Source of the DNA: a virus
Reading direction: 5' to 3' (one strand)
Length of the DNA: 31,126 bases
IMG/VR virus record: IMGVR_UViG_3300044825_001287
Coordinates: 1 to 31,126 of that record
The translations under genes and the position numbers were made by a program. Below the pieces are notes generated by a model that worked only from the letters and a program-made list of their open reading frames with translations, did no database searches and was not told where the DNA came from. Each line of letters begins with the position of its first letter. Position 1 is the stretch's first letter. Below, piece by piece: positions 24,625 through 29,778 of this stretch.

Positions 24625-24939
24625 ATGAGCGCACCGAAGAAAGAACACTGGCTGCGATTCGTCCCCGAGGTATCTGTCGGCACGCTGCTGACGATCTGCT
24701 CGGGCTGCATTGTCGCTCTCGGATTCTTCTACACGATGGGCGTGGCTGTCGCTGACAACGACCAGACCAACAAGCGGCAGGACGCCGACATCACCCGCGT
24801 GGCCGAACAGGTCGCTGCTGTGAAGGCCGCGACTGACACGCGGGCCGAGAAGCTCGACACGAAGATCGAGGAAATGAATCGCAACATCGTTGCGCTGATG
24901 GTGGCGCAAGGGGTCAAGCCGGCAGGGGGTGGTCAGTGA
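24625..24939 (+). CDS. Single-pass membrane protein with coiled coil, 104 aa
   Basis: Residues 17-38 (EVSVGTLLTICSGCIVALGFFYTMG region) form one membrane helix, followed by a charged heptad-like helix (TRVAEQVAAVKAATDTRAEKLDTKIEEMN, about 55-84). The layout of a short N-terminal part, one membrane segment and a periplasmic coil resembles an inner-membrane spanin or a small holin-associated protein, but no family is recognised. ATG at 24625, three nt after the upstream stop; GTGA overlap with the endolysin gene. Confidence 0.75.
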   Translation: MSAPKKEHWLRFVPEVSVGTLLTICSGCIVALGFFYTMGVAVADNDQTNKRQDADITRVAEQVAAVKAATDTRAEKLDTKIEEMNRNIVALMVAQGVKPAGGGQ

Positions 24940-25271
24940 GCCTATCCAGCAAGCAGCGCAATTTCGTGCGCATGGTCGGCCTGCTGATCGAGCATGCCTA
25001 CCAGCAAGGCTATGAACTGACGTTCGGTGACGCATACCGCGATCCACGGCTTCACGGCGCGATGGGGAAAAATGGCGGCTACGGCGCGCCAAACAGTTGC
25101 CACAAGTTGCGTCTGGCGGTCGATTTCAACCTGTTCAAGGATGGCAAATATCTGACCGCCACCGACGACTACCTGCCGCTCGGTTTATACTGGGAGTCAA
25201 TCGGCGGCACATGGGGCGGCCGGTTCAAGGACGGCAATCACTTTTCGCTGGAGCATGAGGGCTTCCGATGA
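24936..25271 (+). CDS. Endolysin, M15-type peptidoglycan peptidase, 111 aa
   Basis: Zinc peptidase of the VanY/D-Ala-D-Ala carboxypeptidase or L-alanyl-D-glutamate endopeptidase type, which cuts peptidoglycan at lysis. Ligands are visible: SCHKLRLAVDFNLF gives H56 and D63, and FKDGNHFSLEH gives the catalytic acid D99 and third ligand H102. A short YRDPR (34-38) motif matches the family. Length is minimal, and no signal peptide is present, so release depends on a holin. GTG start overlapping the upstream stop by 4 nt. Confidence 0.9.
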   Translation: MSLSSKQRNFVRMVGLLIEHAYQQGYELTFGDAYRDPRLHGAMGKNGGYGAPNSCHKLRLAVDFNLFKDGKYLTATDDYLPLGLYWESIGGTWGGRFKDGNHFSLEHEGFR

Positions 25272-25459
25272 AACTCGCAGACAACATCAGCAAAGCATGG
25301 AGCGTGTGGCTTCTGTCCGCAGCGACCGCTGTGGCTGGCCTTGAGCCGTTCTTTCCGGCGCTTAAAGAGGCATTGCCGCCGAACTGGTACGCGATTGCGC
25401 TGCCGGTCATCCTTGTGGCTCGGGTTATTAAGCAGGCAGCCAATGAGCCGCACCCGTAA
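25268..25459 (+). CDS. Holin-like protein, 63 aa
   Basis: Small membrane protein with one or two hydrophobic segments: VWLLSAATAVAGLEPFF (about 12-28) and WYAIALPVILVARVIKQ (about 40-56), joined by a charged turn and ending in a polar tail. It sits directly after the endolysin with an ATGA overlap, the standard place for a holin. It resembles the short class II/III holins of tailed phages but shows no unique signature. Confidence 0.75.
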   Translation: MKLADNISKAWSVWLLSAATAVAGLEPFFPALKEALPPNWYAIALPVILVARVIKQAANEPHP

Positions 25460-26334: not shown

Positions 26335-26412
26335 CCGCCTGTCGGAATAATGCGTTAGCACACACTCCTGTTGCTACTCTTGACCGCACTGTCAGCCACA
26401 GGAAAGTCAAGC

Positions 26413-27570
26413 ATGGATTCCGCCTATCTTGAGTTCTGTATCACCGACGAACAGCGGCGCGTGCTAAATGCCGTCATCGAACACAAGTCAAACTCAAAGG
26501 CGGCGAAGGCGCTAGACAAGGACAGGCGGGCCATAGACAGGATGCTTGGCACCATCCGACTACAGGCCGAGCGGCGAGGATATAGCCCTGCGCACGGCAT
26601 GATTCACGCGACACCACCTACGCATATCGTCAAAGGAACCAGCACGTACTACGACCGCGACGGCGTGCAGGCCGGCCAATGGGTCAAGACAGACCGCGTA
26701 GCAGAATCACTGGCCGAGTCCATCCGCGCCGTTGTCGAAGGTCTGAAAGACGAAATACCGAGAGCCGCAAAGGTTCCCGTACCAGCCGCAGGAAACACAG
26801 ACCTGCACAACGCCTACATCATCACTGACTATCACCTTGGCATGCTCGCATGGGGCGAGGAATGCGGCGAGGATTGGGACTTGGCCAAGGCAGAAACGCT
26901 GCTCTATCAATGGTTCGAGGCCGCCATTCTCGCCGCGCCACGGGCCGCTACAGCGACGTTCGCGCAGTTGGGTGACTTCATACACTGGGATGGTCTGGAT
27001 GCCGTCACGCCGGCAAGCAAGCACATCCTGGATGCCGACACGCGATTCCCAAAGGTCGTCCGCGCTGCCATTCGCATGATCCGCCGCATTATCCGGCTGC
27101 TGCTGACGCGCCATCAATCCATCACGGTCATCATGGCCGACGCGAATCACGACCCCGCCAGCGGCGTGTGGATGCGCGAGATGCTTGCCGAGTTCTACGA
27201 CCACGAACCGCGTGTAACCGTGGACAACTCGCCGGACAGTTACTACGCCGTCCGGTTCGGCAAAACGCTGACCATGTACCACCACGGCCACAAGCGAAAC
27301 GTGAGCAACGTGGATTCTGTCATGGTCGCCAAGTTCCGCGAGGACTACGGACAGACGACCTACCACTACTGCCACACCGGGCACCTTCACCACGACAAGG
27401 TGCGCGAATCGAACCTGATGCACATTGAACAGCACGAAACGCTGTCAGCCAAGGACGCCTACGCCAGCCGGCATGGGTTTATGTCGCACCGTAGCGCAAA
27501 GGTCATTACCTACTCAAAAGAGTACGGAGAGGTTTCCCGCGTGACTATCAGACCGGAAATGCTGTCGTGA
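26413..27570 (+). CDS. Metallophosphoesterase with N-terminal helix-turn-helix, 385 aa
   Basis: Calcineurin-like phosphoesterase. Metal motifs in order: DYHLG (D139, H141), GDFIHWDG (G187-D188), ANHD (N245-H246-D247), HHGH (290-293) and HTGHLHH (321-327). The first 60 residues form a helix-turn-helix-like region (SNSKAAKALDKDRRAIDRML), as in other phage copies. The frame is open to a TTG at 26371, but the ATG at 26413 has AGGAAAG before it. The substrate could be DNA ends or nucleotides; unknown. GTGA overlap with the next gene. Confidence 0.88.
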   Translation: MDSAYLEFCITDEQRRVLNAVIEHKSNSKAAKALDKDRRAIDRMLGTIRLQAERRGYSPAHGMIHATPPTHIVKGTSTYYDRDGVQAGQWVKTDRVAESLAESIRAVVEGLKDEIPRAAKVPVPAAGNTDLHNAYIITDYHLGMLAWGEECGEDWDLAKAETLLYQWFEAAILAAPRAATATFAQLGDFIHWDGLDAVTPASKHILDADTRFPKVVRAAIRMIRRIIRLLLTRHQSITVIMADANHDPASGVWMREMLAEFYDHEPRVTVDNSPDSYYAVRFGKTLTMYHHGHKRNVSNVDSVMVAKFREDYGQTTYHYCHTGHLHHDKVRESNLMHIEQHETLSAKDAYASRHGFMSHRSAKVITYSKEYGEVSRVTIRPEMLS

Positions 27571-27770
27571 GTTTCTACGACGGCTTCACCACAGACGAAG
27601 AACTGGCCGACATTGCCGAACGGATGAAAACCGCGCCCGGCGAGGCTTACGCGACGATCAGAATGTGTACTTTGCGGGAGGTGTTACGTGACCGAGAAAA
27701 AGATAGGGCGGATCGGGCTAGTAGTCGAGAATCAGAAGCCGGCGACCGAGGAATCGGTAGAACTGATTGA
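27567..27770 (+). CDS. Hypothetical protein, 67 aa
   Basis: No family recognised. Acidic start (FYDGFTTDEELADIAERM), then AYATIRMCTLREVLRDREKD, a helical segment. The last 25 residues are rich in D, R and S and lie out of frame over the start of the next gene (83-nt overlap), which is unusually large here. Either the natural end is earlier or the overlap is real. It is coupled to the metallophosphoesterase by GTGA. Confidence 0.6.
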   Translation: MSFYDGFTTDEELADIAERMKTAPGEAYATIRMCTLREVLRDREKDRADRASSRESEAGDRGIGRTD

Positions 27771-27864
27771 CACACTCATCGACATGCTGACCCGTGCGCG
27801 GCCGGCCAACTGCTCGGGCTGGCGATGGTCGAAATTGAGTCAGACGGGGAATATACGCCACTGA
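27688..27864 (+). CDS. Hypothetical protein, 58 aa as read; 5' part of a probably frameshifted gene
   Basis: GTG start with a strong GGGAGG site 8 nt before it. The first 37 residues (KKIGRIGLVVENQKPATEE, then a helix SVELIDTLIDMLTRA) look like the start of a known phage small-protein pattern. After GCG CGG near 27798 the frame gives a poor-looking end (PANCSGWRW). The -1 frame instead continues as AGQLLGLAMVEIESDG to the stop at 27948. One extra G in the GG at 27800-27801, or one extra C at 27802-27803, would join both halves into an 87-aa protein. Confidence 0.6.
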   Translation: MTEKKIGRIGLVVENQKPATEESVELIDTLIDMLTRARPANCSGWRWSKLSQTGNIRH

Positions 27865-27950
27865 TGGCCGGTGACATCGGGTCAATCGGTGAGGTCTATT
27901 TTGCGCTGCACAAACTTGCCGGAACCTTGTGGCGAGCGAATGACGACTAG
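27825..27950 (+). CDS. Hypothetical 41-aa frame; 3' part of the frameshifted gene
   Basis: The segment MVEIESDGEYTPLMAGD, then IGEVYFALHKLAGTLWR, has the strand-turn-helix feel of a normal protein domain. The open frame continues upstream to 27771 without a good start; the residues just before the ATG (GQLLGLA) would fit the -1 continuation of the previous frame. It has no ribosome site of its own. It is best read as the C-terminal half of the gene starting at 27688. Confidence 0.45.
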   Translation: MVEIESDGEYTPLMAGDIGSIGEVYFALHKLAGTLWRANDD

Positions 27951-27973
27951 GAAGAAAACCCGGACGGCTGACA

Positions 27974-28009
27974 AAAAGACGCCCCATCGACCGGGAGGAA
28001 GTGGGGCGT
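27974..28009 (-). terminator. Intrinsic terminator for the leftward gene cluster
   Basis: ACGCCCCA (27979-27986) pairs perfectly with TGGGGCGT (28002-28009) across a 15-nt loop. Read on the minus strand, the stem is followed one base later by TTTTT (complement of aaaaa at 27973-27977). This is a standard intrinsic terminator and lies where the rightward and leftward gene sets converge. On the + strand no T run follows. Confidence 0.75.
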
Positions 28010-28535: not shown

Positions 28536-28849
28536 ACCACCACCCGCAGCGCGGCCTTTGTCACGGCGGCGCGGAAGGATGCGGGGGTGTTGTCGTAATA
28601 CTCGGCACGCTTTGACCATCCTGTTCCATCTTCGACAACGTAGAAAATGCTGTCGTGCGTCACGCGGTTGTTGTGGTCATGGCCAAGCAACCAGCACAGC
28701 ACCGCGACGGCCTGCGAGTCGTTGTTGGCGGGGTCGAAGATGTTGGCCATCTCGCACTTGTTGTCGACCCATATCCGGCCTGCGCCATCCATGAATGCGG
28801 ACGGGTCGTAAGCCCGCGCCAGTTTCAGCATCGCGTCTTGGTCGGTCAT
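28532..28849 (-). CDS. Hypothetical protein, 105 aa
   Basis: No family recognised. MTDQDAMLKLARAYDPSAF opens with a helix, then strands with a short GRIWVDNK, a central helix (QAVAVLCWLLGHDHNNRV), a strand HDSIFYVVEDG and a closing helix (FRAAVTKAAL). The general pattern is that of small phage early proteins. Overlaps its neighbours by 4 nt on both sides. Confidence 0.75.
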   Translation of the reverse strand: MTDQDAMLKLARAYDPSAFMDGAGRIWVDNKCEMANIFDPANNDSQAVAVLCWLLGHDHNNRVTHDSIFYVVEDGTGWSKRAEYYDNTPASFRAAVTKAALRVVV

Positions 28850-29058
28850 GGCGACACCTTTTGCGCACTCCGCGCTTTGTGAAACGCATCTGTGTCGGCG
28901 GTAGTTGTTACGTTAATCCAGTCCGTGTAACCCATCGGGCACATAGCGCCAGACGCATCTATGCCGAACTTGATTGTCCGGTACTGCAAAACGGCCTCTC
29001 CAACGTATGTGTATTGCGGAACCAGTTGGCGCATTTCTATTGCATGACCGTTGTTCAT
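28846..29058 (-). CDS. Hypothetical protein, 70 aa
   Basis: No family recognised. Mixed strands (VPQYTYVGEAVLQYRTIKFGID) with a CPMGYTDWINV segment and a charged, flexible end. No membrane segment. ATG start with the GAAATGA junction also carrying the ribosome site of the gene (AAGGGGGAG); 4-nt overlaps on both sides show translational coupling. Confidence 0.7.
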   Translation of the reverse strand: MNNGHAIEMRQLVPQYTYVGEAVLQYRTIKFGIDASGAMCPMGYTDWINVTTTADTDAFHKARSAQKVSP

Positions 29059-29461: not shown

Positions 29462-29778
29462 GCTCCTTCCCCCTTCGCTGCCTGCTGGGAGGCGGAGAGC
29501 ATGGCGCGGTAGATTCTGGCCGCTGCGTTCTGATCGTTTTCAGTTGAACCGCTAATCCCGTATTGCTTTGCGCAATCAAAGAAGGTTTCGCCACCTACGA
29601 TATACATTTCTGCGGATATTTCTTCCGCCGCCGCCTCCCGCTTGGCGAGGGCTGCGCGGAGTCCCATGATTTCAGCGGCGGCAGCAAGGCAGAGTTTATG
29701 GTAGGCGGTTACCTGCGCCGTCCGTCCCGCCGCTGAACCAAACCCGTCTTCAAGTCTGGCAACTATGTCGTCGCTCAC
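29458..29778 (-). CDS. Hypothetical protein, 106 aa
   Basis: No family recognised. Helical: DDIVARLEDGFGSAAG, then TAYHKLCLAAAAEIMGLRAALAKREAAAEEI, a probable coiled coil, and a Ser/Asn-rich end with ENDQNAAARIYRAM. GTG at 29778 has GGAG before it and overlaps the previous stop by 4 nt. The C-terminus ends AAKGEGA, sharing the repeated tail of this cluster. Phage proteins with this helical plan often sit in small early operons. Confidence 0.72.
   Translation of the reverse strand: MSDDIVARLEDGFGSAAGRTAQVTAYHKLCLAAAAEIMGLRAALAKREAAAEEISAEMYIVGGETFFDCAKQYGISGSTENDQNAAARIYRAMLSASQQAAKGEGA

Follow-up and report, generated by a model that had tools for sequence, protein, structure and literature searches.

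A small phage gene apparently split by a single-base frameshift downstream of an exonuclease gene in a metagenomic viral contig

Genes and open frames at the locus

The stretch of DNA analysed, hereafter the window, is the IMG/VR virus record IMGVR_UViG_3300044825_001287 (31,126 bases), the large genes of which match phage terminase, portal, major head protein, primase and exonucleases. The gene studied here lies between an exonuclease gene and a short hairpin element, and an earlier note on this DNA had described it as a single phage gene split by a one-base frameshift. The features needed to follow the analysis are given below; P0001 is the product of the corresponding gene in a related contig, G001.

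26371..27570, + strand: DNA-repair exonuclease/phosphoesterase gene (phrog_704, E=1.5e-127); the start given is the most upstream one, and the similarity runs from about 26407
27688..27800, + strand: 5′ part of the split gene, in the frame of 27688, with a GTG start and ∼37 codons; codon-phase score +10.3 bits; 37-aa match to P0001
27797..27811, + strand: likeliest interval of the net one-base deficit, a GC-rich CGCGGCCGGCC tract; best composition switch point
27801..27950, + strand: 3′ part of the same gene, read in the −1 frame and ending at TAG 27948-27950; composition +6.6 and +2.4 bits; anchored extension of the homology
27688..27864, + strand: mechanical 58-aa ORF, the last ∼20 codons of which are out of frame; tail −10.1 bits
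27971..28018, no strand assigned: 48-bp hairpin/terminator element just past the split gene, 100% identical in G001

The coordinates in the earlier note, a 5′ frame at 27688 and a stop of the −1 frame at 27948, were correct. The 5′ frame starts with GTG and closes at 27862-27864 after 58 aa; in the −1 frame a TGA at 27768-27770 is followed by open sequence from 27771 to the stop. Both frames are therefore open over 91 nt, and judged by the open frames alone the switch from one to the other could lie anywhere in 27771-27861. The −1 frame also contains an ATG at 27825, which would start a 41-aa protein.

Several neighbouring features were recorded. The ORF at 27567-27770 (+ strand), for which no homologue was found, shares 83 nt with the next gene, whereas overlaps between other adjacent + strand genes do not exceed 11 nt; the stop of its −1 frame is TGA 27689-27691, which would leave a 4-nt overlap of a type common in this contig. 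The ORF may contain a second one-base slip, near 27650-27665; the gain in composition score that it would bring is just 2.8 bits. On the opposite strand, an antisense ORF at 27718-27987 was considered and rejected as a gene, the sole minus-strand similarity to G001 there being the shared terminator. The 48-bp element itself lies between convergent gene sets, and it is identical in G001 despite the differing flanking genes. Its hairpin has z values of −2.4 (minus strand) and −3.1 (plus strand), with a T-run on the minus strand; it is probably a terminator, and possibly also a recombination joint. Beyond it, in the region of small minus-strand genes, short blocks with 95–97% DNA identity to G001 (28685-28851 and 29474-29655) are separated by unrelated stretches, a pattern that suggests a mosaic of exchanged cassettes. 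Further upstream, at 24936-25459, a gene for an M15-type peptidase is followed by a DUF7940 gene, in what looks like a lysis cassette.

Coding signal and homology across the break

The coding signal was measured with a phase-specific composition model trained on the window's other genes. The first frame scored +10.3 bits over 27688-27800 and then collapsed, in agreement with the earlier claim that it degenerates after about 27800: over 27801-27862 it scored −10.1 bits, against +6.6 bits for the −1 frame, which went on to score +2.4 bits over 27863-27950. Over the whole of 27801-27950 the −1 frame exceeded the first by 35.6 bits. The significance of this reversal was assessed with a leave-one-gene-out null comprising 1983 interior positions of other genes, the model being retrained without each gene in turn. 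The −1 frame was open for 150 nt at 323 of these positions, and at none of the 323 did it match the score of the true frame (best difference, −13.4). Composition places the best switch point at 27797-27811, so that the coding signal of the −1 frame precedes ATG 27825. A Viterbi gene model allowing frameshifts, given neither the homology nor a prior location, also changed frame here, at 27810/27811; the remaining frame changes that it called were gene boundaries, the window's other genes being intact. The coding signal thus changes frame at a single point inside the gene, and the −1 frame carries on as normal-looking protein, as had been proposed.

The exonuclease gene upstream led to the IMG/VR contig IMGVR_UViG_3300005664_000042 (G001), the exonuclease of which is 83% identical; the same query found no relatives among genome contigs. 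Shortly after the exonuclease gene, and before the identical 48-bp terminator element, G001 bears an uninterrupted gene of 104 codons (L002:4369-4680), which specifies P0001. This protein starts MDKPSDKKLGRIGIA..., and the window protein MTEKKIGRIGLV...; the two are 38% identical over 55 aligned residues across the break, where LTRAR.GQLLGL is aligned with LAEVRAGRMVGL. The gene in G001 thus resembles that in the window in its place after a phrog_704 exonuclease and before the same terminator, and in the alignment across the break, but differs in its unbroken frame, in a longer, divergent C-terminal part, and in being preceded by a DUF3310 gene (between the exonuclease gene and that of P0001) that is absent from the window.

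Against P0001, the first 37 aa scored 67 (shuffle mean, 23), and the joined protein 99. This increase was rarely reached with shuffled second parts (P about 0.0007; P = 0.0027 when the junction residue was masked), and none of 8854 other 49-residue peptides from the window attained the joined score. By itself, the second half was not significant (P = 0.16–0.20), so its homology evidence rests on collinearity with the first; past the junction this evidence comes from one homologue and mostly from the 20 residues that follow the break. Beyond those residues, the −1-frame part has the support of composition. P0001 showed no similarity to the final, out-of-frame codons of the 58-aa ORF. The homology puts the deficit at about 27799-27804, and the similarity in the −1 frame, like its coding signal, begins before ATG 27825. 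Since the continuous gene of G001 aligns over both halves, the two halves in the window are taken to be one gene, which upholds the central claim of the earlier note. The homologues that would have spoken against that claim did not appear: the only full-length homologue found, P0001, covers both halves in one frame, none was found that ends at the first stop, and no independent homologue of the second half was found in viral contigs.

Weighing the explanations

The reading best matching these results is that of one small phage gene starting at GTG 27688 that very probably lacks one base in ∼27797-27811 by accident, either through an error or through a recent deletion; we infer that the deficit is not a control device. 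Translation would begin at GTG 27688, and the missing base would cause the ribosome to leave the true frame and to stop at 27864. The collinear alignment leaves some small room for another view, in which an unrelated C-terminal part has been joined to a shared N-terminal part, there being only one homologue and the second half alone giving P values of 0.16–0.20. Were the two frames instead separate overlapping genes, one for the 58-aa protein and one for the 41-aa protein from ATG 27825, the existence of that ATG would be accounted for; but the 58-aa ORF scores −10 bits over its last 20 codons, both the coding signal and the homology of the −1 frame start ahead of the ATG, and the relative has a single gene, making this arrangement very unlikely. 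Programmed −1 ribosomal frameshifting, as in phage tail-assembly chaperone genes, would have the right direction, and the 91-nt double-open overlap would allow it. Like the lambda G/GT-type genes, the gene in the window shows a −1 change between two overlapping open phage frames; unlike them, it has no slippery site, no structure and no tail location, and its relative needs no shift. Eight classes of −1 slippery motif (taken from PMC10885494, the exact forms being an interpretation of the class names) were looked for in 27762-27870 and none occurs there, nor is there an X XXY YYZ site, as noted earlier; RNA structure in 27802-27880 is no stronger than in shuffles (z −0.68, for pseudoknot-free folds). 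Conserved phage −1 frameshifting occurs in the tail-gene region (review, PMC5009743), outside which this gene lies, and the frame change is not conserved, the sole relative found encoding the whole protein in one frame. Because of these four features (no motif, no unusual structure, a non-tail location and a relative needing no shift), programmed frameshifting is very unlikely, as the ranking of recoding below error or mutation in the earlier note had anticipated. It is just as hard to credit that a motif-less form of −1 recoding yields the full 87-residue protein beside the 58-aa form in this phage lineage.

An accidental loss of one base could have arisen in the consensus or in the phage itself. 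That the sequencing or assembly is at fault, the gene being intact in nature, has about an even chance. The break is the lone one in a contig with otherwise intact genes, codon usage is normal in both halves, and the tract is a GC-rich, repetitive dinucleotide; the anomalous 83-nt overlap of ORF 27567-27770, explicable by a second slip, also hints weakly at poor local sequence. However, the classical signature of homopolymer errors is absent, there being no run of three or more at the junction, and short-read assemblies have few indels: in a mock viral community, fewer than 2 per 100 kb were found in long-read-scaffolded short-read assemblies, compared with ∼474 in unpolished long-read ones (PMC6487183), although this may not be the technology used for the present contig. 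The same lone break and normal codon usage would be expected if the sampled phage, or some sub-population of it, had in fact lost one base recently and a dispensable gene had thereby been inactivated; the chances of this fall somewhat short of even. The zone appears mosaic and exchangeable, the neighbouring position being occupied by a DUF3310 gene in G001 and by an unrelated ORF in the window, and the rarity of the gene family is consistent with dispensability. Against this, no second record was seen to share the break: a DNA pattern spanning the junction and allowing any length at the break found no other copies in IMG/VR, as searched with near-identical records perhaps withheld. Moreover, dead genes tend to disappear quickly from phages, so that breaks are seldom caught. 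On balance, a consensus error is slightly favoured over a real deletion. Since normal codon usage persists on both sides, the break would in either event be recent or artefactual, its source being a consensus error in the CGCGGCCGGCC tract or a deletion in the sampled phage.

The gene family and the meaning of the break

Neither the window protein nor P0001 matched a Pfam or PHROG family. A match to phrog_796 (E=0.021) was obtained with the joined query only; the family was found neither in this record nor in 21 related ones, P0001 did not match it, and the hit was discarded as chance. No further homologue was found with the joined protein in phages (tblastn), with the P0001 protein in viral contigs and phages, or with an alignment of the pair in genome contigs and viral contigs; the second half alone found none in viral contigs, free-standing or otherwise. 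As far as these searches reach, the family of this gene is rare, with two phages as its only carriers, and it is uncharacterised. Its place, ending the + strand gene series shortly after the exonuclease gene, leads us to guess at a small accessory protein.

The case resembles indel-broken genes in metagenomic viral contigs in its single-base net change, the coding character of both frames and its intact neighbours, but differs in that the break is not at a long homopolymer. It is an ordinary broken gene or assembly error: rather than a new mechanism, the split most likely reflects faulty sequencing or assembly, or else a mutation of recent date. For annotation, the fragments are best recorded as one broken gene rather than as two small proteins or a candidate for recoding. 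If the deletion is real, the product of this phage would be a truncated protein of 58 aa, probably non-functional.
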